Shown: positions 4,677-23,734 of the stretch, in pieces
How the letters are laid out: every line of letters starts with the position of its first letter
How positions within the stretch are numbered: position 1 is the first letter of the stretch
Assembly: GCF_021731985.1 (NCBI RefSeq)
Contig: NZ_JAKFWH010000006.1
Location: 1 to 64,000, forward strand
Reading direction: 5' to 3'
Source of the DNA: Nitrosomonas sp.
Lineage (GTDB): Bacteria; Pseudomonadota; Gammaproteobacteria; Burkholderiales; Nitrosomonadaceae
Length of the DNA: 64,000 nt
Notes under the pieces: generated by a model
Seen by the model: the letters and a program-made list of their open reading frames with translations, nothing else
What the model was told of the DNA's origin: nothing
Database searches by the model: none
Translations under genes and position numbers: made by a program

Positions 4677-4679
4677 CCA

Positions 4680-4895: not shown

Positions 4896-4917
4896 TGTGT
4901 TGTGACATGGCCTTCAA

Positions 4918-6148: not shown

Positions 6149-6402
6149 CGCTCCATCAGCTCATCAAGGTTTTTGATGTTCCCGATATTCGCGCTTGATA
6201 TTGCTTTATCAGCCGCAGCCATGTCGCCCGCATCTAAAGCCTGCTCTATCAAATCAAGCCTGCGCATTTCGTGATCACACGATACCACAGTAACTGAAAA
6301 CGGCTTTCCCTCTGATGCACTCATGCTATCAATGATAGATTTGCGGGTTTCCTCGAAAGCTGCCGGGTCATTGATTGTGTAAACCACTGTTAGGAATTGC
6401 AT
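6145..6402 (-). CDS. Hypothetical phage protein
   Basis: ATGA-type overlap. Confidence 0.55.
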   Translation of the reverse strand: MQFLTVVYTINDPAAFEETRKSIIDSMSASEGKPFSVTVVSCDHEMRRLDLIEQALDAGDMAAADKAISSANIGNIKNLDELMER

Positions 6403-6414
6403 GGCTTCTCCTTA

Positions 6415-6675
6415 TTACTCAGTATTAGTGCCATTGCCAGACTCAGATTCATCATTAATAAACTTGATCATGTTTGCAGCTGGTGTGATAACAGATCCAT
6501 CTGGCATTTCTACTATGGCAGTCGAATATGAGGAAAAGCCACGATCATCTTCCATGCAGTCATATCCGAACTGATGGAATATGCCAGTTCCCAATTCACC
6601 TTTAACCAAAGGATCTCCAAATTTATTTGTGTACTCATAAACAACTACTTTTCTACGTTGCGCGCTCATATTCAT
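6415..6675 (-). CDS. Hypothetical phage protein
   Basis: Compact operon. Confidence 0.5.
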   Translation of the reverse strand: MNMSAQRRKVVVYEYTNKFGDPLVKGELGTGIFHQFGYDCMEDDRGFSSYSTAIVEMPDGSVITPAANMIKFINDESESGNGTNTE

Positions 6676-6881
6676 CCATTCTCAGTAACCGTTTCCCATA
6701 TTTCCTCGAGCTTATCGATCTGTGCCTCACTCAAATTCCGGCCCTCATCAATCTGATTGCGTATCGTTTCAATGAACTCACATTCCCAGTCACTCATCAT
6801 CGATTTGTCGACCTCGCAATCTTCAATCATATTCAGCAAGTAGCTGTTATTGTCATTATCCATACCAGTCCCCTCCATCAT
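6672..6881 (-). CDS. Hypothetical phage protein
   Basis: ATGA-type overlap. Confidence 0.5.
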   Translation of the reverse strand: MMEGTGMDNDNNSYLLNMIEDCEVDKSMMSDWECEFIETIRNQIDEGRNLSEAQIDKLEEIWETVTENG

Positions 6882-7113
6882 TTTCTATGTTTATTGTCGC
6901 AACAACATGCTCCTGACAAACTCCGCCAGTTTCATTAATGGCTCTATTGTTTCCTCCTGCTTTCTTCAATACACATAGAGAACCTGATCCGGAGAAAAGC
7001 CATAAACTTTTTGGCCATTTCTTAGCTACTCTTTTAAGCGCATCAATCGCTTTTTTTTCTTCCTTACTAAGTTCTTCCATAATCACCTTCCACTCACGGG
7101 CACAAACCCACAC
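6856..7113 (-). CDS. Hypothetical phage protein
   Basis: Compact operon. Confidence 0.45.
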   Translation of the reverse strand: MWVCAREWKVIMEELSKEEKKAIDALKRVAKKWPKSLWLFSGSGSLCVLKKAGGNNRAINETGGVCQEHVVATINIENDGGDWYG

Positions 7114-7268
7114 TCATCAGTACGCATATCCGAAAAATCAATCGGTGGCTCACCATCGCTTCCCCACCATGCGCGTGCGTGCGCCATCACGTCATCATTA
7201 AAATTCCTGCTGCAATCGGTATTCGCGCACGGCTGGTTGCAGAATCGTTTGTCTAGGTAGCAGGGCAT
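7083..7268 (-). CDS. Hypothetical phage protein
   Basis: Cys-rich N-terminus MPCYLDKRFCNQPCANTDC. Confidence 0.5.
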   Translation of the reverse strand: MPCYLDKRFCNQPCANTDCSRNFNDDVMAHARAWWGSDGEPPIDFSDMRTDECGFVPVSGR

Positions 7269-7270
7269 TT

Positions 7271-7903
7271 TTAAATCCGACAGCCCATGATTGCTCCGAT
7301 TGTGTCAGAGCCTGTCCGAAACACGAGCATTCCGTTTTCTTTTGCGGAAGAGAATTCCAGGCTTTCTTCGTCGATTATTAGCCGCAAATACTTTTCTTGC
7401 ACATTGATTCCGAGAATTTCCACACAAGCGTATGGCTTGTATACTTTCCCAGAGCCATTGCAATCCGGGCATGTTTCATCGGTTTCCAGATTGTTGTCAT
7501 AACCGGCTCCACCGCATAGCGCGCACTGAAGATCATAGTATGTGCTGTAGTCTGTTTCCGCATCAACAGTGCCATCGCCTTCGCATTCTTCGCACTTTAT
7601 TTTCTTTGCCTTGCCTGTGCCACGGCACACCAGGCATGGCACCATCTCCGGCAAAACCATTCCATCTTTATTCACAGTTAACCATGCGGTCGCTGATTCG
7701 ATTATGTTTATCACCCGCGCAGCGTTGAACCTTTCCGGGCATTGCGGATACTCGTTTTTGCCGTCGTTTGGCATTACGATAATTACGTGTCCGTTAGTTG
7801 CAACAATTCTGTTGTCAACAATGAATGGTGCGTTTAGATGGCTGCGAATATCGTCTTTTCCGCAGAATTGATTAATGTCAATCATGTTTTGCCTCCAAAT
7901 CAA
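7271..7903 (-). CDS. Phage protein with DnaJ-type CxxCxGxG zinc-finger repeats
   Basis: CLVCRGTGK, CEECEGDG, CALCGGAG, CPDCNGSG; start may be 7888. Confidence 0.75.
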   Translation of the reverse strand: MIWRQNMIDINQFCGKDDIRSHLNAPFIVDNRIVATNGHVIIVMPNDGKNEYPQCPERFNAARVINIIESATAWLTVNKDGMVLPEMVPCLVCRGTGKAKKIKCEECEGDGTVDAETDYSTYYDLQCALCGGAGYDNNLETDETCPDCNGSGKVYKPYACVEILGINVQEKYLRLIIDEESLEFSSAKENGMLVFRTGSDTIGAIMGCRI

Positions 7904-8456
7904 CTATTGCCGCAAACTTTCCTGGATGCCAACTCACGGTTCCAGCATCAACCAATGCTTTATTAAAGACTGCTAACGCCTCCTCTACGCTATCCGGCAA
8001 TTCACCATCCTCTGGAAGATCGTCATTCCAATATTCCGAATTTATTTGCGACAATTCATTTGGTTCACAGATAAACAACTCCAATTCATCGGGATCTGTC
8101 ACTTGGGTTTCGCACATCAAATCAAACAGATCATCTTTATCGAAGAGATACTTGTCATGATCCTGTGAATAGAGCGGCGTTTTATGATCCCATTCGATTT
8201 TTTGGGCATTCTTGTATTTCTCGATATCTTTCCTTCTTGAACATGCCCTGCAATAAGACCTTTGTTCAACTACCTCGCCACAATCGCAATGCCTATGCGT
8301 AGATCCTGAATATCTGGCCATTTTTTCATCGGCACCCCAAAACCGGCCATCACGATCAACCCACCCACTAATGCCGGTGACAAATTTAGCCGCTTCCTCG
8401 GATTCTGGGAATATTGGTTTTTCTGGGTTATTTGCTTGCATTTTTTGCCTCGTCAT
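7878..8456 (-). CDS. Hypothetical phage protein with Cys-rich zinc-ribbon-like segment
   Basis: HRHCDCGEVVEQRSYCRACSRRKDIEKY. Confidence 0.55.
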   Translation of the reverse strand: MTRQKMQANNPEKPIFPESEEAAKFVTGISGWVDRDGRFWGADEKMARYSGSTHRHCDCGEVVEQRSYCRACSRRKDIEKYKNAQKIEWDHKTPLYSQDHDKYLFDKDDLFDLMCETQVTDPDELELFICEPNELSQINSEYWNDDLPEDGELPDSVEEALAVFNKALVDAGTVSWHPGKFAAIVDLEAKHD

Positions 8457-9084
8457 ATTTCATGATCCCCCACACAATCGCGTACAGGTTCCAGATAAAC
8501 TGCGGCGAATAGCATTCAGTTCCTCCGCCGTCAAAGAAATCAGAGAATTCAAATGTATGATCACCAATCTCATATCTAAAATCATTAACAGATTGATACG
8601 CCCTGTGTTCCTCGTCAGAGTTGTATAAAACCTCATCCTCTATTTCTTTCCACAATTCACCCTTCTGTAATTCATCCTGAATGCGGGTAACCATATAATC
8701 TTCAAAATGTTCTTTGACCCGGTTCTTGAATTTTTCCTGATCAAATCTTAGGAATCCCCCAAATCTGCTAATAGACTCAAGCTTTTCGCCCCAATAATGT
8801 GGATTGATTAACATCACTCCATTTTTGGATCTAAAAAATCCGAACATGTCGTTAGTGCGTGAAAAAACATAGGTACCGCAATCACCTGAAATACACAGTG
8901 TCCCAGACCAAGTAATGAGATTAAACCAATAAGTGCAGCTATCTGCTTGTTTGAACTGAATGTGTCTATGAACACCATCATCTTTGATGATAGTCATATG
9001 GTGACCCTTAACATCCTCAAGAAATCGTTCTTGAGTGCATTCGTGTTGGTTACTCATCACGCGCCTCTTTTGCTCGTTCTGCAA
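8428..9084 (-). CDS. Hypothetical phage protein
   Basis: ORF in compact operon. Confidence 0.6.
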   Translation of the reverse strand: MQNEQKRRVMSNQHECTQERFLEDVKGHHMTIIKDDGVHRHIQFKQADSCTYWFNLITWSGTLCISGDCGTYVFSRTNDMFGFFRSKNGVMLINPHYWGEKLESISRFGGFLRFDQEKFKNRVKEHFEDYMVTRIQDELQKGELWKEIEDEVLYNSDEEHRAYQSVNDFRYEIGDHTFEFSDFFDGGGTECYSPQFIWNLYAIVWGIMKYDEAKNASK

Positions 9085-9286
9085 GATTCTTTATTGTTTC
9101 AAAAACAAGGTGAGCCTCATCTTTGTGCATTGGCACCGATACAAAAAGCCTTCCTTGCTCCAAATTGCTCCTTTCTTTCCGGATGACTCTCTCAGCAAAC
9201 CACTGACCCCAGCCGAACCCGGAAACAAAAAATATGACAGCTATCACTGCAAAATAAGTAATCACGATTTTCATATCCTTGAGCAT
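9050..9286 (-). CDS. Small membrane-anchored protein
   Basis: MKIVITYFAVIAVIFFVSGFGWGQWFAERVI transmembrane segment. Confidence 0.55.
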   Translation of the reverse strand: MLKDMKIVITYFAVIAVIFFVSGFGWGQWFAERVIRKERSNLEQGRLFVSVPMHKDEAHLVFETIKNLAERAKEARDE

Positions 9287-11011
9287 TTAAGCTGCCTTTG
9301 CCTTGTTATCCTGAGCAATAACCCCGTCCTGTATCCAATAAGCACTTGTTAAAGATGGAAGCTTTTCAGGCAATTCTTTGAGCGTTCCAAACACCATCAC
9401 TGTTTCAATCTCTTTATTTTTTGCCAAGGTAACAAGCCATTTCATGCAAGTGACGCGACTAGGTGGATCAAGCAAATCAAACTCATCGGCCATAAAAAAC
9501 TTCAATTCGGTTATGTGGCTGATAGCTTCTGCAATCATTACATTGGCGCGCCACTTGGCAGATTGTGATGCTAGACCGTATGGTTTGCCGCCATAACTGA
9601 TGGTCATGTCATCATTGATAAAAACTTGCTTCCAGCCGGTATCTGTAGAAGTTTTTGCCAGCCGCTCATTGATTGGGGTAATTGCAGTTTTAAGTATTTC
9701 TCCTGGTATTCCATCAGGAGCTAATGCATACGAAATTGCATCCCATTCCTGAACATCAGTGTGATAGCCAGCGGCTTTTTTGGTCTTTTCATCTGCTTCA
9801 AGGGCAAGTTTTACGTTCTTATTGATCAGGTCGAGTGCATCCTGGGATTCTTTGCGCTTTGTTCTCAGCGAATCAAGCTTTTCTTTAAGTAGATTAATGC
9901 GTTCCTCGCTGATTACCTCTTTTGATTCTTTTTCGAGTTCTACCAGTTTTTCTTTGGCATATTTCGCAGCCGCAAGATCACGCTCACCGTTTTCAACTGA
10001 ATTCTTGAGCAATGTAAGTGCGCTTTCTAATCCAGGAAGCGCCAAAACAGCATCTTCATTGCCTTGCAAATCGCCTTCCCGTTTAACAAGTTCCTTTCCA
10101 TTCCAGAATAAGTCAGAATCGCATGATGGGCACTTGCACGCGATATTGTCAGGCGTTGATCCTTGAGCAAGTCTGCGTGCGTCCTCTACCTTTACCGTAA
10201 TCAATGCTAGTTCTTTCTTATCAATCGACAACTTTGTTTCAATACGATCAATCTGCCCAGATTTAGCGCGTAATCCATTAATCTCAGCTTCATTCTTATT
10301 GGCATTGTTAAATTGTGTCTGCAATGATCCAAGTTTCTGGTTTTCCGCATCAAATTCAGCGCTGATATCTTCGAGTGCTTTCTGTGCCGCAGCCATTGCA
10401 GATTGATCCACTTCCGGCTTGACTGCCTTCCAATCGACAGCCTTTTTATCGCCATACACTTCGCCGGTCGTAGCTTTCCAACTGGATCGCGCATCTTTGG
10501 TATTATCGATGGCTTGCTTTTGGGCATTGCTAAAGCCTGACACCAGGAATGGCAGTATTGATTCAGTTTTTTTCTCATTGCATTTGCGTTCTAGCATTTT
10601 CTTTTTAATGCTAGGCAGGTCTCGTTTTGTACCGGTAATCTCTATGATGAGACCGCGCCTTAAATCCTCGGTGGCACTCGAAAATAGGGCAGGGTTTAGC
10701 ACATACGGAAGGGCAGAATGAATCTGTTCTTTAATCTCATGCGCGCCATTAGGCAGGGTAATACTTGCGCGCTTGCCACCATCCCATTCAACGTAGCAAT
10801 ATCCAACCGTGTCATTATCATTAACAAGATGTTTTAATTCTTTTTTGCCTACCCGCGTGCTGGCACCGGTAAAAGCGTGAATGATTGCTTCATAAATACT
10901 GGATTTCCCGGCTTCATTTGATCCGCAGATCATGTTTACCGGGTTACTCAATTGGATATCTGCGCTTCTTGCTGCAATTATGTTGTGTGCTGATATTTGT
11001 TCGATTTTCAT
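9287..11011 (-). CDS. SMC/SbcC/RecN-like AAA ATPase
   Basis: ISAHNIIAARSADIQLSNPVNMICGSNEAGKSSIYEAI Walker A; central CPSCDSD zinc hook-like; C-terminal MADEFDLLDPPSR Walker B-like. Confidence 0.85.
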   Translation of the reverse strand: MKIEQISAHNIIAARSADIQLSNPVNMICGSNEAGKSSIYEAIIHAFTGASTRVGKKELKHLVNDNDTVGYCYVEWDGGKRASITLPNGAHEIKEQIHSALPYVLNPALFSSATEDLRRGLIIEITGTKRDLPSIKKKMLERKCNEKKTESILPFLVSGFSNAQKQAIDNTKDARSSWKATTGEVYGDKKAVDWKAVKPEVDQSAMAAAQKALEDISAEFDAENQKLGSLQTQFNNANKNEAEINGLRAKSGQIDRIETKLSIDKKELALITVKVEDARRLAQGSTPDNIACKCPSCDSDLFWNGKELVKREGDLQGNEDAVLALPGLESALTLLKNSVENGERDLAAAKYAKEKLVELEKESKEVISEERINLLKEKLDSLRTKRKESQDALDLINKNVKLALEADEKTKKAAGYHTDVQEWDAISYALAPDGIPGEILKTAITPINERLAKTSTDTGWKQVFINDDMTISYGGKPYGLASQSAKWRANVMIAEAISHITELKFFMADEFDLLDPPSRVTCMKWLVTLAKNKEIETVMVFGTLKELPEKLPSLTSAYWIQDGVIAQDNKAKAA

Positions 11012-11059
11012 GATTATTCGACCTTAATTGATGTAAGTTCTTGTCTGTTTTGATGATGA

Positions 11060-11947
11060 TTACGCAGCCGCTTTCTCATCACTCAAAGGCCGCTGCTCCC
11101 CCAGAGTACCAATTAGCTCATTGATTATTTTTAAGCACTGTCCTGACCGGATGGTGAACTCGTTATCAAAATAGTCATCATCTGTGTCGAATTCAGAGCG
11201 ATCCTCAACTAGATCAGGAAGGGTGATTTTGCTAATCATTGATTTGTTATCAATTGTGAAAAAGCACTCATCCTTGCCAAGTACGATTTCTAACTTAACA
11301 GGGCGCTTACCCTGCAGAACGTAACTGGTAACCACGACCGTGTCCAAATGCTCATTTTTGTACGTGATTCTTTTGCTTTTTGCTTCCGCATCTTCAAGAA
11401 CGCAACTCCTGCCCAATGAAAAATTATCAATGCTCGAATCATCATCAAGAACCAGTCTGCGCATAAACATTTCCACCGAACTACCAAATCTTAGAAGCGC
11501 CCCGGTGTATCCTAAGTGCTTAAAAAGGCGTGCCCATACATCATCCGCAACGGCACTGGAGGTAGTTTCAATGCACAGCAAATCATGTTCGGTATTAATC
11601 CAAACATTTATTGATTTGCTTGTTACAAAAGCTTTTGCGTACAGCTCAGAGATTAATTGCTCTTTTAATTCGCGCAACTGGCTTTTTGTAAGTTTTTTTA
11701 CTTCGAGCCTTTTGCACAAATCATCGGCTCGCAGTTTTAACTCACGATTAATCACGCTGGCAGGTAGCAATTTCTCTTGTTTTTCGCAAACAAGCATGAT
11801 GTTTTTGCCTACTTCGATGAATGGATCGCCATTGCGTAATTCCTTCCATGAGTAACCAACATGGCCTGGTATTGAGATTTCCTCTCTGAGCTTTTCCAGG
11901 TCTGGTACCCACCCTTTGGGCGATCTGAATATCGTTAAATTTTTCAT
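11060..11947 (-). CDS. rdgC: Recombination-associated protein RdgC-like
   Basis: KNLTIFRS..., KLLPASVINRELKLRADDL, LRELKEQLISELYAKAFVTSKSINVWINTEHDLLCIETTSSAVADDVW. Confidence 0.8.
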   Translation of the reverse strand: MKNLTIFRSPKGWVPDLEKLREEISIPGHVGYSWKELRNGDPFIEVGKNIMLVCEKQEKLLPASVINRELKLRADDLCKRLEVKKLTKSQLRELKEQLISELYAKAFVTSKSINVWINTEHDLLCIETTSSAVADDVWARLFKHLGYTGALLRFGSSVEMFMRRLVLDDDSSIDNFSLGRSCVLEDAEAKSKRITYKNEHLDTVVVTSYVLQGKRPVKLEIVLGKDECFFTIDNKSMISKITLPDLVEDRSEFDTDDDYFDNEFTIRSGQCLKIINELIGTLGEQRPLSDEKAAA

Positions 11948-11975
11948 GTTTATTTCCTATGTTAATTTTTGGTGG

Positions 11976-12458
11976 TTAATTTGATGCCAATAATTTACTT
12001 TCCTTTAAAACCATTCTCGCCCACTCAGCAGAACACCCAACTTCACGCGCCAGTAAGCTAATGTTGATTCTCTGTCTGCCCCTATTTAGCTTAATCATCC
12101 TTTTATAAACCTTAATAATCGTGACCTTTACAAGAGGAAGGCTAATATTCAAATGAGATCTTGTTTCCTGTATGTATTTGGCTATGCTGCTACTCTTTAA
12201 ACACGGAATATCTTCATTGCTCTTATCTTCCGTAATAAGGCCATCCACACATAATTCGTAATGAATAACCTTGCACAAGGTTTTTCCTTCAAGAAGCTTT
12301 TTAGCAATCGTAGTCTTAATATTTTCTCTCTGCTCTTTGCTTATTTTTGTGCGTTCCCGATGACTGATTGAACATTTGCCAATATGAATCCGTGGCTTAA
12401 CACCGTCTAAAATTGGCAGTGACTTATTCGCAAAGAAATTAATTGCAGCGCTATCCAT
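11976..12458 (-). CDS. Hypothetical phage protein, possible HTH at C-terminus
   Basis: NISLLAREVGCSAEWARMVLKESKLL. Confidence 0.5.
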   Translation of the reverse strand: MDSAAINFFANKSLPILDGVKPRIHIGKCSISHRERTKISKEQRENIKTTIAKKLLEGKTLCKVIHYELCVDGLITEDKSNEDIPCLKSSSIAKYIQETRSHLNISLPLVKVTIIKVYKRMIKLNRGRQRINISLLAREVGCSAEWARMVLKESKLLASN

Positions 12459-12463
12459 GACAT

Positions 12464-13504
12464 TTAATCGAGATTAAAATCTTTATCTGATGAAGATTCA
12501 GCAATCTCGCGCTGGCGTATCTTTTCTTTCTCTTCTGGTGATGGTGAATCAGAGTTTCCAGCTTGGGATTCTTCGGTTTTTATGCCTGGTCTAGCTTGCT
12601 CGTTTTGCTTTTGATCATCAGGTTTTTTATCTGCAGTTTCTGTTCTTTCCTTTGTGCGTTCTGAGCCACCAGACAAATCTCCAGCATCAGGAGATGATTT
12701 AAGGTCTTGGAGATTTACGTTGTTCGCAGAAAAAGATCCATCTGCCTGCTCAAAAACATCAATTACATCATTGATTTCTTCGGAGCTTTTCCCCATCCCC
12801 ATAATCGCGTCTTGAGCGTATATCGATGCAAAGAAAGTACCTGCGCGATATTGGAGCATCTGGAATCGCATTTCTCCCTGCCATTTTGAGCCGTCTTTTG
12901 CATACCATCCTTCCTCTACTGCCATCTTCATGGATACCGGAATAGACTGCACAATATCTTTTGTCGGACGGCGGTTAGCGTCGAGAACATAAGCCCACGC
13001 AACACATTCCCAGTTATCTATTTCAATCTGTTGATCTTTGAAATTAAACCGGTTTAGAGTTTTATTCCAATCCTGCTTTTCTTTATATTTGGCCGTTATT
13101 CTGCCTAGGTTTGTGAGCTTAAATTGGAGCGGAGTAAATCTACCGCAGGCGTTAACAGCGGCTATTTGGAATTTTGACGACCAACGCAACTTGCCTTGGA
13201 TTACATCAGCATTTTGCATGACGCTTATCATTGATAATCCGACTGATTTGGCAACTTCTATTGCAACCAAGCAATTTCCTAGTGATGCGGGGTTTCCAAC
13301 AAGCGTTGAATTCCCATTAGATCCTTTTTTTTCATTGAATTGCCTGAATGCTGATGGCACTGCATCCGATGTTGAAAGAGCCTTGGCAATTTCGCACGCA
13401 AGTTCAAAGCCGTTCTTCGAGAAGAAATCAACTTTTAAATCCGGCTGCATTCCTATGGCTGTTCCAGTTTTCCTTATTTCTGATAATTGTGTTGTTTCAT
13501 TCAT
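12464..13504 (-). CDS. RecT-family-like single-strand annealing protein
   Basis: NCLVAIEVAKSVGLSMISVMQNADVIQGKLRWSSKFQIAAVNACGRF; acidic C-terminus; located beside exonuclease-like gene. Confidence 0.6.
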   Translation of the reverse strand: MNETTQLSEIRKTGTAIGMQPDLKVDFFSKNGFELACEIAKALSTSDAVPSAFRQFNEKKGSNGNSTLVGNPASLGNCLVAIEVAKSVGLSMISVMQNADVIQGKLRWSSKFQIAAVNACGRFTPLQFKLTNLGRITAKYKEKQDWNKTLNRFNFKDQQIEIDNWECVAWAYVLDANRRPTKDIVQSIPVSMKMAVEEGWYAKDGSKWQGEMRFQMLQYRAGTFFASIYAQDAIMGMGKSSEEINDVIDVFEQADGSFSANNVNLQDLKSSPDAGDLSGGSERTKERTETADKKPDDQKQNEQARPGIKTEESQAGNSDSPSPEEKEKIRQREIAESSSDKDFNLD

Positions 13505-13509
13505 TTGAT

Positions 13510-14325
13510 TTAATCTCCTTTAAAAATACATTTTTTCCAGCGTGGACAATATTTCTCTGAACAGAGCGTAGATTTTGGATTCGGATAAAACATGCCAGTA
13601 CGAAACATATTTGCAGCAAACTCAATCAAACCCTTATTGTTTTCATCACCAACCATGATCTGCTTCGCATTGCCTATTACCCCGGTAGCTATTTCCGCCT
13701 TGCCCTTGGTTTTTAGTCCGATAATCTCAGCCTCAGAGGTTATTTGTTGGCCGGTCGTGTGTTCATACAGCAATTCATACGTGCCTATTTGCGCAGCATG
13801 TCCCTTCGTTACTGCAACGCCGTTTTGAACAGAATTTCCACCACTTTTGAGGTCAGCAATACCAACCCCTGCGGTTGTTTTCTTTATCCTTGCTCTATCC
13901 AGCGTTCCTTTCAGCCTGATAACAACTCCGTTTCCGCAATCAATATCAAACTCCTTGGTATTCATTTCGATAGCCACAAAGTTGTATTTTGGGGACCATA
14001 CTTGGCAATACTCTGAAACAAGCGACACCCCTATAAATTCCGCTTCTTTCATGGTGATGCCGTCTCTACCGTGATCGAATTCGTTTTCAGGATCGTGCAA
14101 TTTGTCTATCATTACGCCGGTTGCATCTATGATGCTCACACCAGAGTCGTCTAATCTGCCTTGATCAAATGCCGCGGTTCCAGCATGAATTGCGGTACCT
14201 AATGCGGCTCGCAGTCCGACTGTGTTGCGCATGCCTAGCAAGTGAATTCCCTCCCATTTATACGCACAGTCAAAAAGACTGGGCCATGAGGATGCGCGAA
14301 CGGTTAGCGACGGCTCTACCATCAC
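13510..14325 (-). CDS. PD-(D/E)XK nuclease (RecB/Cas4-like phage exonuclease)
   Basis: ALGTAIHAGTA; LKGTLDRARI; GVGIADLKSGGN; C-terminal CSEKYCPRWKKC. Confidence 0.75.
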   Translation of the reverse strand: MMVEPSLTVRASSWPSLFDCAYKWEGIHLLGMRNTVGLRAALGTAIHAGTAAFDQGRLDDSGVSIIDATGVMIDKLHDPENEFDHGRDGITMKEAEFIGVSLVSEYCQVWSPKYNFVAIEMNTKEFDIDCGNGVVIRLKGTLDRARIKKTTAGVGIADLKSGGNSVQNGVAVTKGHAAQIGTYELLYEHTTGQQITSEAEIIGLKTKGKAEIATGVIGNAKQIMVGDENNKGLIEFAANMFRTGMFYPNPKSTLCSEKYCPRWKKCIFKGD

Positions 14326-14633
14326 TTCTTCTCTCGAGTAATTCTTGCCAGACGAAACGATTCTTTGAAACTGAACCCCTCACGCTTATAAAAAACAAAG
14401 TCACAGAGGAACTGCCACGCTCTCTTAATTTTTTGCATGATTTATTCCCTCACAAAACCCGTATGTCTTGCACCACCGCTCGTTTGCTTTATCAAAATCA
14501 ATAAAGCTAACAACCGCAACCAATACGGCGATCCCGAATATCAGATGTTTAAAACCCATTAGTTCATTCATTTGAATACTCCACATTCATGTACAGTTGC
14601 TACAATCGCGATTTGTAGAGGAAGGCTCATAAT

Positions 14634-14882
14634 TTAACTCTCTGTACGAGTTAATATTCCATCAGTAAAATCGTGGTCGTAATAACCTCGGTTCACCTTG
14701 TCCAAATCTATCAATACTGATTCCCAGTTTTCGTTCTGCTTCCCCTCCGCGGCAACACAAATCTCATGTTTAGAAACAAAACAGCCATCAACCGGAGTCG
14801 GGTACGCTGCATGGAACTTAACTGTCCCATCCAGATCTTGTGTTAAATATTTAAAAGTTGGGACCTCTAATTTAGGCATCAC
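14634..14882 (-). CDS. Hypothetical phage protein
   Basis: ATGA overlap with 14879-15274. Confidence 0.5.
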   Translation of the reverse strand: MMPKLEVPTFKYLTQDLDGTVKFHAAYPTPVDGCFVSKHEICVAAEGKQNENWESVLIDLDKVNRGYYDHDFTDGILTRTES

Positions 14883-15274
14883 AGCACCTCGCTATCAGGT
14901 AAAAAATTCTTTAATTGCTGATTCTTTAGTTTTGCTTCAATGCGTAATTCACGCGCTTCTGCTGCAAATTTCATTTCAACAGCACGGAAAACGTCAGCAG
15001 ACATGGAGTCAACTATTCTCATCACTTCAGTGTTCGGAATGTCCTCGTATCTTGGATAACTAGGATCAGGAATATTTAATTTTCTAACGAACCCGCTCAA
15101 AGAGTTACCACTCTTTCTTCTGTTAGCTAAATACTCTGAATGGTCATCAAGTTTTTTTGCTCGCTTTAATAGATCTTTTTCTTCATTGGCAATCTGGTTA
15201 AGGTTTTCAAGATTCATCACAGCACCTTTACTTTCACGCAGCACAATCCATTCATCGCTGCATACATTTGGCAT
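14879..15274 (-). CDS. Hypothetical phage protein, first long gene of leftward operon
   Basis: Same-strand ORF downstream of the promoter at ~15437-15465; start may be 15217. Confidence 0.5.
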   Translation of the reverse strand: MPNVCSDEWIVLRESKGAVMNLENLNQIANEEKDLLKRAKKLDDHSEYLANRRKSGNSLSGFVRKLNIPDPSYPRYEDIPNTEVMRIVDSMSADVFRAVEMKFAAEARELRIEAKLKNQQLKNFLPDSEVL

Positions 15275-15436
15275 GTAGCCTCACCAGTTGATTTGAACTG
15301 GCCATAAATCGGTTTGTGCCTACCGGCAGCAGTCCTGATTGTTATTACGCACTTGATCATTTTTATTCGCTCCGTTTGTTTGCTTATCAGCACTCACCTA
15401 CGCTTAACGATTCATGGTGGTTGTGTTGATGTGATG

Positions 15437-15479
15437 ATATTAGGCCATGCCTAACTACTTGTCAATAGGCAAAGCCTAA
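15437..15479 (-). promoter_or_regulatory. Leftward early promoter with two operators
   Basis: Minus strand TTGACA-N17-TAATAT (15465..15437); operators TTAGGCCATGCCTAA 15440-15454 and ATAGGCAAAGCCTAA 15465-15479. Confidence 0.85.
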
Positions 15480-15594
15480 TATTATTTGCTATACTCCAAA
15501 CTCAAGTTGAAATTAAGCGTTGCTTTGAAGGCCGGGCAGGGCGTTGCAGGGAGATTTATTTGAACAATCTGAAATTAATTACTAAGATGCGAAT

Positions 15595-16344
15595 ATGGCT
15601 ACTCAATCAACAATAGAATGGACGGAGCAAACCTGGAATCCCACTACCGGCTGTACTAAGGTGTCACCGGGTTGCAAAAACTGTTATGCAGAAGTAATGG
15701 CAAGGCGGTTACATGCAATGGGAACGCCTGGCTATGAAAACGAATTCAATCTCACTGTTCATGAAAATCGTCTTAGCCAGCCTTTACTCCGGAAGAAGCC
15801 AACTGTTTATTTTGTGAACAGCATGAGCGATTTATTTCATGAAGGCGTTTCTGATGAATTCTTGGATAAGGTGTTTGAAGTTATCGAAAATACTCCGCAG
15901 CATACCTATCAAATACTAACCAAACGAGCAGAACGGTTGCCGGTATATTTCAACCTGCGAAAATGTCCTGATAACGTATGGCTTGGCGTATCAGTAGAAG
16001 ATAAGAAATATGGAGTGCCACGCATTGATTACTTGAGGCAAGTAAACGCAAAAATTAGATTTCTTTCAGTGGAACCCTTGCTCGAAGATGTGGGGAAAAT
16101 GAATCTAACCGGCATTCACTGGGTGATTGTTGGCGGTGAATCTGGACACAAAGCCAGACCAATGAAGGCTGAATGGGTTATTAATATTCAGCAACAATGT
16201 GAAGAATCGGATGTGGCTTTTTTCTTCAAACAATGGGGTGGTTGGGGTGCGGACGGTGTTAAGCGTGACAAAAAGGCTAACGGGCGCATTTTTCGTGAAC
16301 GCACATGGGATGACTATCCGAAAGCTTTGGGTTCGTCCTTATAG
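15595..16344 (+). CDS. DUF5131 / phage Gp37-Gp68 family three-Cys-motif protein
   Basis: TIEWTEQTWNPTTGCTKVSPGCKNCYAEVMARRL; TKRAERLP; WLGVSVE; GGESGHKARPM; FFKQWGG. Confidence 0.92.
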   Translation: MATQSTIEWTEQTWNPTTGCTKVSPGCKNCYAEVMARRLHAMGTPGYENEFNLTVHENRLSQPLLRKKPTVYFVNSMSDLFHEGVSDEFLDKVFEVIENTPQHTYQILTKRAERLPVYFNLRKCPDNVWLGVSVEDKKYGVPRIDYLRQVNAKIRFLSVEPLLEDVGKMNLTGIHWVIVGGESGHKARPMKAEWVINIQQQCEESDVAFFFKQWGGWGADGVKRDKKANGRIFRERTWDDYPKALGSSL

Positions 16345-17256
16345 TGAATTCAGAATATCTTTTGCAATTTTGGTCGCCAGTCCATGCGCCTTAAGGCTAG
16401 GATTGGATGATGCAAAATACAGGGCGAAGAGTGGAGGGCCACTTGGATTTCTTGAATTTCCGCCCCGGTGCAGAATTTTTGGTTCAGTCACTGCGGGAAA
16501 CAAAGTCTTCAATTGCTTTGATACAAATTTCAGCATCTGAGGGTGATCTATATCACGCACATCGCCATTTCCTCCGCCAAACATATCTGATTGTGGATTC
16601 TGGACATAGAATACCTTGCGCCATTCATCAGTCCCAAGTACGCGCGTTAGTGATGCCTCTTTGTCGGCATCAAGTGCGTCTGCGTTCTTTGTTGCCTGTC
16701 GATACAGTCCGGCATACGGGAATAAGTACCAGACATCAATCGCACCGGTTTTAGCAATAGTTTCCAACGTTGACCATTCAACATGCATTCCAAACGGATC
16801 AAGAAACAGTACGGCACGCTCCCGTCTCCAATGATATTGGGTGCACAAGGTTTTCAATGCCTTATTGGCATCGTCCTGGATAATCTCAATGATCTTTCCA
16901 GGATGCTCTGATCTCAAAGCATTCAATGCCATTAACTTCTTCGAGTGAAGCTCGATGAAACAGAATTTATGAAATGCTGGATTGATGTCCAATGCCCTGC
17001 GTGCAGAGCCATCGATAGTTTTATTCTCACCATCGACTTTGATATCGCACCGTCCCGTACCAGCAAAAGCATCGATATATAGACGGGTAAAACTTTGTTT
17101 GCTGAGAACAGTATTGAACGCAGCCAGATATTTCTCTAACGCCCCTAGCTTGATGAGAGTCCAAGCCCCGCCGAAGGAGTGCTGATCGCGTGAGACATTG
17201 TCTAATTCGTCTTCATCTGGCAACAGCCCATTATCACCTCCGATAGGTTCTACCAT
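16339..17256 (-). CDS. Three-Cys-motif partner protein TcmP-like
   Basis: YIDAFAGTGRCDI; GSARRALDI; CFIELHSKKL; VLFLDPFGMHVEWSTLETIAKTGAIDVWYLFP; convergent with DUF5131 gene. Confidence 0.85.
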   Translation of the reverse strand: MVEPIGGDNGLLPDEDELDNVSRDQHSFGGAWTLIKLGALEKYLAAFNTVLSKQSFTRLYIDAFAGTGRCDIKVDGENKTIDGSARRALDINPAFHKFCFIELHSKKLMALNALRSEHPGKIIEIIQDDANKALKTLCTQYHWRRERAVLFLDPFGMHVEWSTLETIAKTGAIDVWYLFPYAGLYRQATKNADALDADKEASLTRVLGTDEWRKVFYVQNPQSDMFGGGNGDVRDIDHPQMLKFVSKQLKTLFPAVTEPKILHRGGNSRNPSGPPLFALYFASSNPSLKAHGLATKIAKDILNSL

Positions 17257-17464
17257 ACACCCCTCTTAGTTCTGTTTAATAATAAAAAATATCATATTTC
17301 CAATTACTTGGTAACGTAAAATTTTTGATAAACTTGAATTCACCGCGATATCGTAAGGGTAAGGGAAAGAACGAAAGGGTAGGCGGTAGAAGGGGTGCGG
17401 TTATAACAGGCAATAAAAACCAGCCGGAGCGGATTAGTGGTCGAATTGGATTAAAATTAAATAG

Positions 17465-17896
17465 TTACACTTCAATTCTAAACTTATATTCTAAATCGGT
17501 TTCCTTAATTGAAACTACTAATTTATATTCACCAAGTTGCGTAACCTTAAATGGAACAAATTTTGCAATTAAATTAGCTTCTTTATGTGCGCTATTAATT
17601 CCTTCATCAACTATATGACCTAATTCACTATTTTCTATTAATACCGTGGTATCTGGCGCATATAGACTTATATTTACTGCAAAACTACCTTCAAAACCAA
17701 CTAAACTAGCTAATATAGAAACACTTGGAATCATGACAGCCGCTTCTTTGGAAAGGGCTGGTATATCAGTAGGTAAAGTAATGACAATTCGATCTCTTGG
17801 GTATAGGCCGATTATGATAGGACGATTATTCAATTCAAGTCGAATATCTTCTGCCAAATAAAACTTTACTTCTTTTTTTTGAGATGTTTTTTTCAT
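17465..17896 (-). CDS. Unknown protein (possibly DUF6941-like) coupled to HicAB
   Basis: 4-bp overlap with hicB; FYLAEDIRLELNNRPIIIGLYPRDRIVI. Confidence 0.6.
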   Translation of the reverse strand: MKKTSQKKEVKFYLAEDIRLELNNRPIIIGLYPRDRIVITLPTDIPALSKEAAVMIPSVSILASLVGFEGSFAVNISLYAPDTTVLIENSELGHIVDEGINSAHKEANLIAKFVPFKVTQLGEYKLVVSIKETDLEYKFRIEV

Positions 17897-18465
17897 TGCT
17901 GGGTAATAAAATGTTCTGAGGGAGTGTTTTCCGCCATACTAATTGTCTTTCCTTTAAAAGCAATCATTTGTTTATTGCTAATAGTTTGAGGCGGGTAAGC
18001 GACTAAAATCGTATTACGCAAGTCATTTTTGATAGAAAAGAATTGGTCTTGTATGGATTTTAAAAAAACATGCTCTGTATTTTTACAACCAACATACTCA
18101 GAGATTGCTGAGACAATCAGTTGATTAATACTGGTATCTTCTAATTCCGCTAATTCTGCAATTTGTTTATGCAGTCCGCGTGGTATACGCAATGCTATCT
18201 TTCCACTATAGCCAGAATAATCTATTGGCTCCCTAACAGGATAGCCATTAGATAGAGAACTTTCTAGCCAAGAGAAAGCAGCTTCATTCAAATTATCGAG
18301 TGCCTCTTGCGGGGTATCTCCTTCAGCAAAACAACCTGGAAATTCTTGTATCAATGCTGTAAACCCGCCAGTCACGTCCGGAATAAGTTGTCGAGCATAG
18401 GGTTTCCTCAAAATATCTTTTATTTTGTCTAAGTGATGTTTATTGGTTTTTTTCATCTGATTCAT
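17893..18465 (-). CDS. hicB: HicB-family antitoxin
   Basis: GGFTALIQEFPGCFAEGDTPQEALDNLNEAAFSWLE plus IALRIPRGLHKQIAELAELEDTSINQLIVSAI (RHH). Confidence 0.85.
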   Translation of the reverse strand: MNQMKKTNKHHLDKIKDILRKPYARQLIPDVTGGFTALIQEFPGCFAEGDTPQEALDNLNEAAFSWLESSLSNGYPVREPIDYSGYSGKIALRIPRGLHKQIAELAELEDTSINQLIVSAISEYVGCKNTEHVFLKSIQDQFFSIKNDLRNTILVAYPPQTISNKQMIAFKGKTISMAENTPSEHFITQQ

Positions 18466-18748
18466 TTTCTATTAAAAATAATTCCCATTCATCAACATCG
18501 TTAATAAGAAAATCAATAATATTTCTCGCTGTTCCAGGTTTGAGTTCATCCCGATGAGGGATACTTAATGAACCGTTTAGCCGTGGCGGGATATTTTTCC
18601 TTTCATAATAAGGTTCCTTACCATGATTCTCTTTTAAGCGACCTAATTTTTTAGCAATATTAACTAAAATCTTAGAGTTAATATTGAAGGGGGACTTACG
18701 TAAACTACTCAACTGTTTCTTAATTTCAGATAATTTCTTCTTGTTCAT
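18440..18748 (-). CDS. hicA: HicA-like toxin
   Basis: KLGRLKENHGKEPYYERK...GSLSIPHRDELKPGTARNIIDFL; overlaps hicB. Confidence 0.65.
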   Translation of the reverse strand: MNKKKLSEIKKQLSSLRKSPFNINSKILVNIAKKLGRLKENHGKEPYYERKNIPPRLNGSLSIPHRDELKPGTARNIIDFLINDVDEWELFLIENESDEKNQ

Positions 18749-18860
18749 GATATCACAGGCAATATCATAAGCAAGTAATCGGAAGGAAAGAGATTTTATT
18801 TAACATTAATTTTATGACCTGATAATTATCTAAAACTTCCTCTCATTGATCACTATAATT

Positions 18861-18929
18861 TTAGGTCTTCTTGCGCATCCCCATAAACCCAACCAACCCC
18901 AACCCGGCCAGCAGCATCGCGTAGGTGTG
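18861..18929 (-). pseudogene. Orphan PEP-CTERM C-terminal anchor remnant
   Basis: Minus-strand translation HTYAMLLAGLGLVGFMGMRKKT*, immediately preceded by an in-frame stop (18930-18932). Confidence 0.8.
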
Positions 18930-18937
18930 TTATGAAA

Positions 18938-19327
18938 TCACCAGACTTTTGTCGCTGTAATCTTATAGCCATCCGGCAACAAACATTCATATCCAATATT
19001 GGGGATGCAAGATACTTGTGTTATTTCAGCGATTGTATCCGTTTTAATTTCTATATCAGAGATTATATTGCCTTCTCCGGTGATATTGGTGATACGGGCT
19101 TTATTATCTGTCCTTGTACCTCTTGAAGCCACCCAATCTCCCCCATAATCGTCGTTATACACAGCAACAATAATCATTTCATTGTTATTTTCGGAAACAA
19201 TGGCATATCCGTAAGGTTTTATTTCCCAAATGCCATCGAATGGCCCAGCCGCGAATGACTGCGCGGGTACAAGTAACAAAAGCGCTATAAGAAATTTTTT
19301 CATAATATTTTCTCCTAATTTGATCAT
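18938..19327 (-). CDS. Small secreted protein of unknown function
   Basis: MKKFLIALLLLVPAQSFAAGPFDGIWEIKPYGYAIVS signal peptide; start may be 19303. Confidence 0.65.
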   Translation of the reverse strand: MIKLGENIMKKFLIALLLLVPAQSFAAGPFDGIWEIKPYGYAIVSENNNEMIIVAVYNDDYGGDWVASRGTRTDNKARITNITGEGNIISDIEIKTDTIAEITQVSCIPNIGYECLLPDGYKITATKVW

Positions 19328-19357
19328 TTCTGTTTTATAAACGTATTAACCAAATAT

Positions 19358-20632
19358 CTAGTCGCTTACCGAAACCAACTCGTCCCAATCAGTTGTGTAT
19401 CCTGGGCTTCTACTACCCTGTTTCATCTTCCATAACTGATCAGTACCTTCGGATGCTAACTTAATAGTGCCTTTGCCCATCCTGGCGTTAATTTGATCTA
19501 TAACTTTCATCAATCTTTTCGACTTGCTATCTTCCAGCCGGAGCCCAAACAGATCGGTTTGCCGATGCTCGCTATCTACCAAGTCGGATAGCATCACCCC
19601 AGCTTTGTTGTATTTATAGCCGCGCCGGTAGATTTTGTGGAGTCCCCAAAGGGCAACTTTGGTCAGCAAGATAGTATCTGCAGATTGAGTTGGCAGCTTG
19701 ATCTTGAAATCGTTATGATAGTTCTCTTCCGGCTTATTGAATCTGCTGGTGGTGATGAATACCTGCACCGATCCGGCATACGATTGCTGCCGGCGTAATT
19801 TCTCTGCCGCTCTGGCGATGTGTGAGGAAACCGATTCTTCCAGGCTAGCGAGATCTTTTACCGTGATTCCGAAAGATCGAGAACTGATGATCTGCTTCTT
19901 GGGAGGCGATATTTCTTCCATTGCTATGCAGGGTGTACCATTAATCTCATGAATAGTTTTTTCCATGACCACGCTAAAATCCTCCCTCAATCGCTTTGGA
20001 TTTGCGTGTTTCAGGTCTAATACTGTCTTAATGCCATGTTTATTGAGTCGTGGTGCCAGGCGCCTGCCGATTCCCCATACTTCTCCAACTTCAATGCGGC
20101 TGAGCCACTCGTCATGGAGGGTAGGGGATAATGAATTAAGATCGCACACGCCGCTGAACTCTGGATTTTTCTTGGCAATATGGTTTGCCAGCTTTGAGAG
20201 CGTTTTGGTTGACCCAATTCCTACGCATACCGGAAGTCCTGTGCATTGTTTGATTCTTTGTCTGATGCCATGGCCATAAGTAGATTGATTCTGAAATCCG
20301 GTGAGATCGAGAAAGCATTCATCAATCGAGTAGATTTCCTGATTAGGGCTGTATTCAGAGAGTATGCTCATCACTCGACTGCTCATGTCGGCATAGAGTG
20401 TGTAATTGGATGAATAAGCAATGATTCCATGTTTCTTTGCCAAATCCTTCATCTCGAACCATGGCTGACCCATCTTAACGCCCAGGGCTTTGACTTCATT
20501 GCTTCTTGCTACCGCGCAGCCATCATTATTCGAAAGAACGACAACAGGCACGCCCTCAAGCTTTGGATTAAATACCCGCTCGCAACTCACGTAAAAATTA
20601 TTGACATCGATGAGGGCAATTAAGCGGGGCAT
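19358..20632 (-). CDS. umuC: UmuC-like Y-family DNA polymerase
   Basis: [75 protein letters not shown]. Confidence 0.95.
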
Positions 20633-20818
20633 GATTTACTCTATTAATATTTTTCGTGTTCTGGCGTACAAAATAGAAGATAAAATGAATTCAGCATCCG
20701 AAAAGTTCATATCGCTCTCATCCAGAGTGGCCTCCCAGCCGACTTTGCTTTGGGGTGTGAAGAAGGCTGGGTTTATTTTCATTCTTTATTTTTCTTCCGG
20801 ACCTGGTTCTGGAACAGG

Positions 20819-20856
20819 ATCTGGATCTGGCTTTATGGGAAAAGCCAGATCCAGAT
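20819..20856. repeat. 16-bp perfect inverted repeat (hairpin)
   Basis: ATCTGGATCTGGCTTT-atggga-AAAGCCAGATCCAGAT. Confidence 0.8.
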
Positions 20857-20947
20857 GGTTGCAATTGCAATCAGCGCAGTAAAGATTAGTGGCTTAGTCG
20901 GAAAAATTGCCTTTTCCTGATTCTATAGCAGCATATTATGAATTAAC

Positions 20948-21289
20948 TTATTTTTTACCGTATGGTATCCAGTCTAGCTTTTCATCTAAAAAGGCAATCC
21001 TATATGAAAGACATCGACGCTCAGCGAGAGTCACAAGCAAACTTAAGGTATGCACTTCGGTGCCCAGGTCTAATAGCCAACAGTTTTCGCCGAGCGCTTC
21101 AAGATTTTCGCCAGTATTCGAGAGATTTTTGCATCTCTCTCTATAAATACGTGAAATTTCGTCTAAAGCGAGACTAGCTTCATGAGGAATGCTTCCTTGG
21201 GAATCCTTTTCTGGTCTGAATATTTGTAAAATTGCTTGTTTCATAATGTTTATGGCGCTGATTATGATTTTTTCAATTTTTCTTTCCAA
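20948..21289 (-). CDS. Hypothetical protein
   Basis: 113-aa ORF between umuC and the PEP-CTERM gene. Confidence 0.4.
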   Translation of the reverse strand: MERKIEKIIISAINIMKQAILQIFRPEKDSQGSIPHEASLALDEISRIYRERCKNLSNTGENLEALGENCWLLDLGTEVHTLSLLVTLAERRCLSYRIAFLDEKLDWIPYGKK

Positions 21290-21306
21290 GATACGATTAC
21301 CGCAAG

Positions 21307-22071
21307 CTACTGTTGTCTATTCCTACGCCGCACCATAAACCCAACTAATCCAAGACCTGCCAGCAGCATCGCGTAGGTGGATGGCTCTGGTACCGGCGAC
21401 ACTGGATCAGGATCTGGAATAAAAACTGGCGGCAGCGTTACATTAATGTTGTCTATCGCTAGGAAATTGGTGGTGTCTTTCGTGATTGTTACGCTTGCTA
21501 GATTGGTGAATCCTGTCAGATCGTGGTGAGTGAAATCATTCCCAATCTGAATATCGCTATTAAGGGCGGTGGCATCAAGTCCCACAGATTGACTGATTGA
21601 GCCGCCGCCTACAAAATTACCAGTAATGGTAGCCTGAGTCTCACCATAACCAGCCTGCCACATAACCAAGTCCAAGCCATTGAGAGAAAACGGTTCATTG
21701 CTGGCAAGATTGAACGTTAATGATGGAGAAAACATAGCGTAATCGGTCCCGTTCCAAGCTGTCAGGAACGTATCTATTGCAGCCCCAGAAAGCCCCGGAT
21801 TGCTGCCCCAATTTTGCATATCAACAAAAATTAATCCATTATCAGCTCCGATAGATGGATTTAAACCTACGCCGCTACTAGCGAATTGGAATCCTCCAAT
21901 AGAAGCTACTGCGCTATTGATAAGCACTGTCGACGCACTATCATGAGAATACTCTCCCGGCATATAGTTGCCAGCCAAGCCATCAAAAGTGATTGTTTCT
22001 GCCGCTGAATTTGATGCTAGCCCTATTGATAAAACACTTGCTATTGATGCTGCTATTAGTTTTTTCTTCAT
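21307..22071 (-). CDS. PEP-CTERM sorting domain protein
   Basis: Signal peptide; C-terminal VPEPSTYAMLLAGLGLVGFMVRRRNRQQ. Confidence 0.92.
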   Translation of the reverse strand: MKKKLIAASIASVLSIGLASNSAAETITFDGLAGNYMPGEYSHDSASTVLINSAVASIGGFQFASSGVGLNPSIGADNGLIFVDMQNWGSNPGLSGAAIDTFLTAWNGTDYAMFSPSLTFNLASNEPFSLNGLDLVMWQAGYGETQATITGNFVGGGSISQSVGLDATALNSDIQIGNDFTHHDLTGFTNLASVTITKDTTNFLAIDNINVTLPPVFIPDPDPVSPVPEPSTYAMLLAGLGLVGFMVRRRNRQQ

Positions 22072-22143
22072 TTTTATTTTCTTTTAATTAAGTTCTTGCA
22101 CTTACATTCTTCTTCATCGCACCACTCGTTTAAAAAAACAACG

Positions 22144-22587
22144 TTATTTGTCTCCATTAACATCATTTTTCTTTGGTTTTCCTGTCGAATCAGCAAATCT
22201 TCTAACGATTTTTTTTAAATCAGGACGATGATCTTTTTTTATTTTCATCACCGCTCTGATTATCTCTATCTGATCGAAATCTAAATTGTTCTTTTCAATA
22301 CCAAGCAGATCTAATAGATCTTTATCTTCTGAAGTTTCCTCTATCGACGGGACGGGTGGTTTCTCTTTTAATCCCCAATGCTCTGGGCCTACCACATCAG
22401 AAAAATAATCCCAAAGCTTTGGCAATTTATCTTTAGAGATCGACCCTTTCTTTATCCAATCGTGTATCGATGGCGGCTGTATGCCGAAATAGTCAGCAAT
22501 CTCTTTCTTTGACGAAACAGCGCCAGAAGCTATTTTTAATTTGATAGCTTCAGCTATTGCGTAACCCAATTCTTTTCCTTTAAGCAT
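22144..22587 (-). CDS. CI-like phage repressor with HTH
   Basis: KKEIADYFGIQPPSIHDWIKKGSISKDKLPKLWDYFSDVVGPEHW; divergent from Cro/YdaS-like gene. Confidence 0.7.
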   Translation of the reverse strand: MLKGKELGYAIAEAIKLKIASGAVSSKKEIADYFGIQPPSIHDWIKKGSISKDKLPKLWDYFSDVVGPEHWGLKEKPPVPSIEETSEDKDLLDLLGIEKNNLDFDQIEIIRAVMKIKKDHRPDLKKIVRRFADSTGKPKKNDVNGDK

Positions 22588-22656
22588 CGCCTAATTTTCG
22601 ACCCAAAAAAGAATATAGGCAATTCCTATTGACAATTATTAGGCGTGGCCTAATAA
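22580..22656. promoter_or_regulatory. Genetic switch region with three operators and a rightward promoter
   Basis: TTAAGCATCGCCTAA 22580-22594; ATAGGCAATTCCTAT 22615-22629; TTAGGCGTGGCCTAA 22639-22653; TTGACA 22629-22634 with TAATAA about 16 bp downstream. Confidence 0.85.
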
Positions 22657-22916
22657 TGTTAAACATGAATACAGAAACCGTTAATTATCATTTAAAAAAT
22701 GCATGCGAAATAGTTGGCGGGCAATGTACTTTGGCGCGCTTGCTACAAGTCTCATGCCCAACAGTTAACCAATGGATACACGGTATAAGGCCAATTCCAG
22801 CGAAGCGGTGCCCTGAAATTGAAAAATTAGTAAATGGGAAAGTTAAATGCGAGCAATTGCGAGCTGATATCGACTGGTCGTATCTACGCCAAACAAATTC
22901 AGAAGAAGCGGCATGA
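22656..22916 (+). CDS. Cro/YdaS-like HTH regulator
   Basis: NACEIVGGQCTLARLLQVSCPTVNQWIHGIRPIPAKRCPEIEKLVNGKVKCEQLRADIDW; ORF track starts 22629, likely start 22656. Confidence 0.8.
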   Translation: MLNMNTETVNYHLKNACEIVGGQCTLARLLQVSCPTVNQWIHGIRPIPAKRCPEIEKLVNGKVKCEQLRADIDWSYLRQTNSEEAA

Positions 22917-22957
22917 TTTTTCATCATTCCAGTTTAGAAACATTGTCGAGGTAAGTC

Positions 22958-23554
22958 ATGCAACATAAATCGCATAAAAGATCGTGGATTTCAGTTGTTT
23001 CTGACCATGTTGAAGAGTGGAAATCAGCAAATAAGTGGAGCCGCGAAACTGCAGCGGAGGCGATAGTCAACAAATACCATGAGGTTTATCCAAACGGATT
23101 GCCTGGGGTGGAAGAGTTCTCAAGTCACCCTGACATATTCACGCGCAATCGGGTAAATGCAACGCGCATATTCCGCTGGCTTGATGACCGTACAAAAGAC
23201 AAAAACTTCCTTGATTCAAACTTTCTCTCAGTGATCCTGCAAGCATTGCCAGATGACATAAGGCTTCATTGTTTGAATGAAATGCTGCGGTCAATGGATA
23301 TTGTTGCTGAATCAGTTTGGCAGCAAGTAAAAACCTCTGAAGATAAGCCAATTTCGCACTTAAAGGCATTGATAAAAGAAGGCTCGGAAGCCTGTAATGC
23401 GCTGACAGACTTACTTGATGGAGAAACATACGAAGAGTTGGCTAAGGCTCAACAGGAATTAGCAGAACTCGAACGAAGTGCAAAAATTTCCAGGTTATCA
23501 GTAAATGCAAAATTATCAGCCTTGAATGTACAGCCAATCAAAGGCAGTAAATAA
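22958..23554 (+). CDS. YdaT-like/CII-position phage regulatory protein
   Basis: Position immediately after cro; NRVNATRIFRWLDDRTKDKNFLDSNFLSVILQALPDDIRLHCL. Confidence 0.45.
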   Translation: MQHKSHKRSWISVVSDHVEEWKSANKWSRETAAEAIVNKYHEVYPNGLPGVEEFSSHPDIFTRNRVNATRIFRWLDDRTKDKNFLDSNFLSVILQALPDDIRLHCLNEMLRSMDIVAESVWQQVKTSEDKPISHLKALIKEGSEACNALTDLLDGETYEELAKAQQELAELERSAKISRLSVNAKLSALNVQPIKGSK

Positions 23555-23667
23555 CAGAATTCATGTGAACCTCACTAGACCATGAATAAACCTCTTAACC
23601 CAAGTGCTGGAAACAGCATCAAAACGATACGAGATATCGGTGGAGTGTTGAATTGGGTTTCATACAC

Positions 23668-23734
23668 AAGAGCTGTATTAGTGGTAGCACATGCAATTCC
23701 TTCATGTGCGCAGGTTCGATTCCTGCCAGCTCTT
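23668..23734 (+). tRNA. Aberrant tRNA-like element (possibly Gly-UCC-like)
   Basis: AGAGCTG/CAGCTCT acceptor, canonical T-arm GCAGG-TTCGATT-CCTGC, GTGGTAG D-loop, extended 7-bp GCACATG/CATGTGC anticodon stem with 9-nt loop. Confidence 0.45.

Follow-up and report, generated by a model that had tools for sequence, protein, structure and literature searches.

Organization of the Probable Left Operator Region and Left Arm

The window (the whole stretch of Nitrosomonas sp. DNA that was analysed, 64,000 nucleotides) contains at 15437-15479 two dyads of 15 bp each, interleaved with a sigma-70-like promoter on the minus strand. The original prediction placed here two dyads of the repressor-switch type, with centres 25 bp apart, and a minus-strand TTGACA-N17-TAATAT; direct reading of the sequence finds both where they were claimed. 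It also put the first dyad within the 17-bp promoter spacer. This dyad does take up 12 bp of the spacer, but it also runs into the -10 box, covering its leading TAA. With 10/12 consensus positions matched, the promoter is the top of 13 sigma-70-like matches between 4300 and 15700. The features of this region are:

15440-15454, no strand: operator OL1, TTAGGCCATGCCTAA, from the sequence and the OR-trained leave-one-out motif described below; one of the genome's two exact 15-mers, with 12 bp in the PL spacer and 3 bp at the start of the -10 box
15465-15479, no strand: operator OL2, ATAGGCAAAGCCTAA, from the sequence; 25 bp from OL1 and abutting the PL -35 box, with base 15465 common to both
15437-15465, minus strand: putative promoter PL, TTGACA-N17-TAATAT, with the -35 box at 15465-15460 and the -10 box at 15442-15437
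15217-15360, minus strand: 47-aa ORF that may be the first gene read from PL, with GGAG upstream, from an ORF scan of the leader; homology did not confirm it
4455-15274, minus strand: left arm, the presumed PL transcription unit (Pfam/PHROGs; order of the exonuclease, RecT-like and ATPase genes shared with locus L014)
13510-14325, minus strand: exonuclease (Pfam/PHROGs)
12464-13504, minus strand: RecT-like annealing protein (Pfam/PHROGs)
11060-11947, minus strand: RdgC (Pfam/PHROGs)
9287-11011, minus strand: SbcC-like ATPase (Pfam/PHROGs)
4455-4676, minus strand: excisionase-like HTH protein (Pfam/PHROGs)

Several small genes are also found in the left arm. The exonuclease, RecT-like and SbcC-like genes follow one another in the same order in L014, a locus from a Nitrosomonas MAG, where their proteins are 72%, 35% and 45% identical, respectively. 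PL precedes the recombination/excision arm as in lambda, and we infer that it transcribes all of the approximately 11 kb, in which no strong terminator stands out (10 terminator-like sites, 9.0 expected).

An 11-kb operon read to its end would usually need antitermination. No boxA within one mismatch was found in the PL leader near 15.3-15.4 kb, where other antitermination systems are possible, and boxA counts in the window (11, with 14.2 expected) show no excess. The window and the Nitrosomonas relative have the leader sequence AATCGTTAAGCGTAGGT in common, of which no further copy is found near PR, and Rfam gave no match in 15100-23700. Among relatives from Pseudomonas and Burkholderia, a boxA-like CGCTCTTTA or a one-base variant of it lies shortly after PL in L009, L010, L021, L037, L040, L041, L042 and L045. 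The enterobacterial PL leaders (K-12 Rac, L016, L023, L047, L107) share, by eye, a different stretch around CCCGAGGCGTATGAACATGACGGCGGG that may be a structured RNA for antitermination.

The Repressor/Cro Switch

The second set of operators lies between a leftward repressor gene and a divergent cro equivalent:

22144-22587, minus strand: RacR-type repressor, 147 aa (homology to RacR; Pfam; S24 peptidase domain not found)
22580-22594, no strand: operator OR3, TTAAGCATCGCCTAA, from the sequence; overlaps the repressor start codon, at a -7 position conserved across the family
22615-22629, no strand: operator OR2, ATAGGCAATTCCTAT, from the sequence; at a conserved position, abutting the PR -35 box
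22639-22653, no strand: operator OR1, TTAGGCGTGGCCTAA, from the sequence; the second exact 15-mer of the genome; it overlaps the spacer and the -10 box of PR
22629-22657, plus strand: putative promoter PR, TTGACA-N16/17-TAATAAT, from the sequence, with an operator-promoter layout as in PL
22656-22916 (start at 22656 or 22665), plus strand: Cro equivalent of the YdaS family (Pfam PF15943, E 8.7e-28)
22958-23554, plus strand: CII-like activator (PHROG 163, E 1.1e-16)

The family of the repressor had been left unnamed in the original prediction. Judged by homology, the protein encoded at 22144-22587 is a RacR homologue and its family is RacR. It shares 58% identity with E. coli K-12 RacR over 114 aa, and it matches the Rac repressor of E. 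coli phage vB_EcoS-683R6 to the same extent (58% over 114 aa). The recognition helix, residues 37-46, reads QPPSIHDWIK here and QPPSIYDWIK in RacR (9/10 identical), and helix 38-47 of RacR has been assigned to DNA contact (PMC11014345). The region has a RacR-like DNA-binding domain, a divergent YdaS-family Cro and a CII-like gene, as in RacR-type immunity regions, and three TTAGGC/GCCTAA dyads separate repressor and cro (22580-22653). In E. coli, RacR binds the racR-ydaS intergenic region at three GCCTAA/TTAGGC repeats, giving three complexes in EMSA, and represses ydaS (PMC5700373); by size exclusion it forms octamers (PMC11014345). Since the repressor is RacR, the sequence of its operator had been published before, and what had been noticed at 15437-15479 is a second cluster of a known word. 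When 60 related genomes were searched for the repressor, only two weak partial matches came back besides the window's own.

No S24 match was found in the window repressor by Pfam, and K-12 RacR likewise lacks an S24 domain. Relatives in L010, L017, L029 and L036 have the same DNA-binding domain and operators but carry S24. The DNA-binding domain is found with two kinds of C-terminal part, S24 in these four and a short unrelated one in the window repressor and L127. The two C-terminal types imply, at the level of domain architecture, that the induction mechanism may have been exchanged while operator specificity was kept. As a lead for inactivation we considered a LexA-controlled antirepressor of the Gifsy type (PMC3121763), and the box search gave it no support: the window has 16 near-matches to LexA-like boxes, none exact and not in excess of the 15.0 expected. 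No antirepressor was found in the window.

In 13 loci, nearly all of them lacking a Shine-Dalgarno sequence, cro has its start codon 10-12 bp past the end of OR1: the window (22639-22667), L014, L017, L018, L021, L028, L029, L032, L033, L034, L036, L038 and L044. This is about where PR should start, so that a leaderless cro mRNA is predicted. The distance is approximately 30-37 bp, mostly with a Shine-Dalgarno sequence, in K-12 Rac, other enterobacterial loci and most Pseudomonas loci. A second HTH regulator (XRE-like, HTH_31) is encoded in the right arm at 30577-31230.

Scarcity of the Exact 15-mer in the Host Genome

With up to two mismatches the core TAGGCNNNGCCTA is found 15 times in the window, against 17.7 expected, which is chance level; all five core matches with no or one mismatch, however, fall in the two switch regions. 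The original prediction expected the motif to cluster at these two places and not to be scattered over the host genome. When the whole host assembly (2.93 Mb, about 96% complete) was scanned, the exact 15-mer TTAGGCNNNGCCTAA was present only at 15440 (OL) and 22639 (cro), and no scatter of the full motif was seen. Two other exact 13-bp cores lie within long open reading frames on other contigs. The best pair spaced by 24/25 bp in the window scores 39.2, while the maximum over 1000 first-order Markov shuffles was 21.6.

A Conserved Operator Pair in RacR-Family Loci

We assembled 33 RacR-family loci from the genome collection and four phage records, 37 in all, plus five sampled viral contigs. 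For each locus tested, a palindromic weight matrix was built only from the repressor/cro operators of the other loci, and pairs with a spacing of 24 or 25 bp were then sought away from the switch. For 32 of 37 loci the best pair fell 3' to the repressor gene, and each scored above all 100 shuffles (first-order Markov) of its own locus, although the loci are related and the count overstates the number of independent events. These 32 loci come from beta- and gammaproteobacteria. The pair was also present in all five sampled viral contigs; it went undetected in L024, L025, L026, L031 and L027, the last a 5-kb contig, that is in 5 of the 37.

An alignment anchored on the pair gives the layout TTAGGCnnnGCCTA-TTGACA-n-TTAGGCnnnGCCTAATAT. 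Of the 36 aligned elements, 18 have TTGACA as the -35 box, 12 have TTTACA and 6 have a close variant; in all 36 the box is fused to the upstream operator, and the promoter always points away from the repressor. At the switch, nearly all loci have the third operator at -7, overlapping the repressor start codon, a position that suggests autoregulation of the repressor.

If one protein read both sites, OL and OR should change together. The mean OL-to-OR mismatch is 2.24 within genomes and 3.39 between genomes (27 dereplicated loci), and 0 of 10,000 permutations were as low, a result that relatedness of the loci likewise inflates. This co-variation is what a single protein reading both sites would produce, and shared ancestry contributes to it.

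These results bear on two trivial explanations of the dyads. One is that the two palindromes resemble the cro-region operators by chance, as the chance-level frequency of the two-mismatch core in the window might suggest. We give this a negligible probability and regard it as refuted, because the pair score was reached in 0 of 1000 shuffles and the pair is conserved in 32 of 37 relatives. The other denies that the dyads bind protein and takes them for hairpins or a transcription terminator. The segment 15466-15478 does score as a weak terminator-like stem on the plus strand, but the stem has five pairs and a T-poor tail, and the region holds 10 terminator-like sites against 9.0 in shuffles. 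A terminator would, furthermore, leave unexplained the fixed 24/25-bp spacing, the promoter overlap and the co-variation with OR. We therefore rejected this explanation as extremely unlikely.

Judged from these sequences, RacR-type phages seem to carry a conserved OL/PL cassette as a family-wide rule. In the open-licence literature, to which the search was confined, we found no description of a RacR left operator/promoter. A specialist in lambdoid phages would expect such an element.

The Operator Pair of E. coli K-12 Rac

The K-12 Rac prophage has an operator pair with 25-bp spacing at NC_000913.3 1419629-1419668, upstream of ydaG, ydaF, kilR, racC, recE, recT, xisR and intR. This element was found here and is not reported in the consulted passages of PMC11014345. 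According to that paper, xisR and intR rise about 100-fold when RacR is lowered, cells that express the C protein show a 40- to 70-fold rise of kilR, ydaF, ydaG, ydaE and racC, and the RacR regulon had not, in 2023, been characterised in detail (PMC11014345). Repression at the K-12 element would explain the rise of the left-arm genes, xisR and intR on loss of RacR and is consistent with these values. The link between expression and element is indirect, as the C protein could also act elsewhere. The pair names a candidate cis-site for RacR control of kilR, ydaFG, racC, xisR and intR.

Cargo between the Left Operators and the Repressor

The OL pair is 7,108 bp from the repressor start here, as against 712 bp in L014 and 573 bp in K-12. 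Comparison with L014, in which the interval is nearly absent, puts the cargo lying between OL and the repressor here at about 6.4 kb. Among relatives the interval ranges from about 0.5 to 7 kb. In the window it contains:

15466-15495, plus strand: possible divergent promoter, TAGGCA-N18-TATACT with a TG extension, from a consensus scan; weak, with its -35 box inside OL2
15595-16344, plus strand: DUF5131 protein, candidate defence component PDC-M41B/M30B (Pfam, PADLOC)
16339-17256, minus strand: PDC-M41A candidate defence partner (PADLOC), which we take to be TcmP-like
17465-22071, minus strand: remaining cargo, namely a HicB-like protein, a UmuC-type polymerase and unknowns (Pfam), and a PEP-CTERM-like protein (by eye)

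When the large ORFs of this interval in relatives were compared with PADLOC at 1e-5, 8 of 20 matched, against 1 of 20 size-matched ORFs from elsewhere in the same loci; the interval ORFs were chosen as the largest available. The matches were to BstA, NsnA/PD-T4-2, a methyltransferase, PD-Lambda-5_A, PDC-S13 and weaker ones. Fisher's one-sided test gives p of about 0.01, or 0.05 if only six are counted as convincing. These annotations hint at a slot for cargo that is enriched in candidate defence genes, which would be useful for spotting phage-borne defence genes.

The position of OL2 raises the question of whether it chiefly serves a rightward promoter for the DUF5131 gene, the cluster being a bidirectional operator for cargo and left arm. 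On the plus strand TAGGCA-N18-TGcTATACT (15466-15495) places its -35 box within OL2, and the DUF5131 start lies 100 bp downstream. A 9/12 match is, however, common by chance (13 found, 25.6 expected in shuffles), and this promoter does not outscore chance in the consensus scan. The same pair occurs in relatives that lack a DUF5131 gene, so that control of this gene cannot be the main role of the pair, and we consider a chiefly divergent function unlikely. A broader proposal is that the RacR OL/PL is a single conserved cassette, undescribed for RacR, that stays coupled to its repressor even where exchangeable defence cargo intervenes, over a range of at least 0.5-7 kb, and that OL2 here also gates a divergent defence-gene promoter, tying defence expression to repressor occupancy. 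Taken as a whole, we put this forward tentatively, as something rather improbable.

Proposed Repression at OL/PL

We conclude that 15437-15479 is very probably the OL/PL of a RacR-type lambdoid prophage. The OL/PL reading, already offered in the original prediction, is supported at the sequence level by the genome scan, the pair in 32 of 37 relatives and the OL/OR co-variation, and operators of the same repressor are interleaved with a leftward early promoter as in lambda. By analogy, the window repressor would bind and repress at OL, and cooperativity or looping between OL and OR may occur.

In a lysogen, RacR dimers on OL1 and OL2, covering the -10 box, spacer and -35 box, would exclude RNA polymerase from PL. 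RacR on OR1 and OR2 would block PR likewise, and at OR3 it probably limits its own synthesis. Upon loss of the repressor, PL would fire leftward and the recombination/excision arm would be expressed, and PR would express cro and the replication genes.

The sites might instead be mainly operators for the YdaS-like Cro, which would shut PL late after induction, the repressor binding weakly here. A YdaS-family gene is present, and CI- and Cro-type proteins bind overlapping operators in lambda and CP-933P (PMC8630535). The published binder of this word is, on the other hand, RacR (PMC5700373), and Cro binding is compatible with binding of the repressor, as the two are not mutually exclusive. We regard a mainly Cro-dependent role as very unlikely and favour RacR-controlled OL/PL.

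Comparison with Known Systems

RacR and DicA have been placed in the Gifsy/GfoR group of repressors with LexA-controlled antirepressors, and Gifsy/GfoR prophages likewise have a recE-type left arm under repressor control (PMC3121763); the window differs in having no detected antirepressor and no excess of LexA-like boxes. The PaaR2/YdaS system of CP-933P resembles the present one in its YdaS-type switch and in the matching repeats at a downstream left promoter, PL933P, but it has another repressor and its operators are repeats of the consensus GTTTAGTAA (PMC8630535). Phage lambda has the same plan of two opposed early promoters, one repressor and repeated dyads, with OL1 and OL2 interleaved with PL. 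Its operator sequence is unrelated, however, and here the repressor lacks a C-terminal S24 self-cleavage domain, there are two OL sites rather than three, and the OL-OR distance is much larger.

The E. coli Rac RacR-ydaS-ydaT region differs from the window in its left-arm genes, in the distance of OL from the repressor start (573 bp in K-12, 7.1 kb here) and in the integrase, which here is on the strand opposite the left arm. Published work on Rac, as far as PMC5700373 and PMC11014345 go, covers only the racR-ydaS operators. The two regions are alike in their homologous repressor, YdaS-type Cro, CII-like gene and operator word, in the switch operators between repressor and cro, in a recombination arm running leftward, and in the OL pair, which in K-12 also has a spacing of 25 bp.
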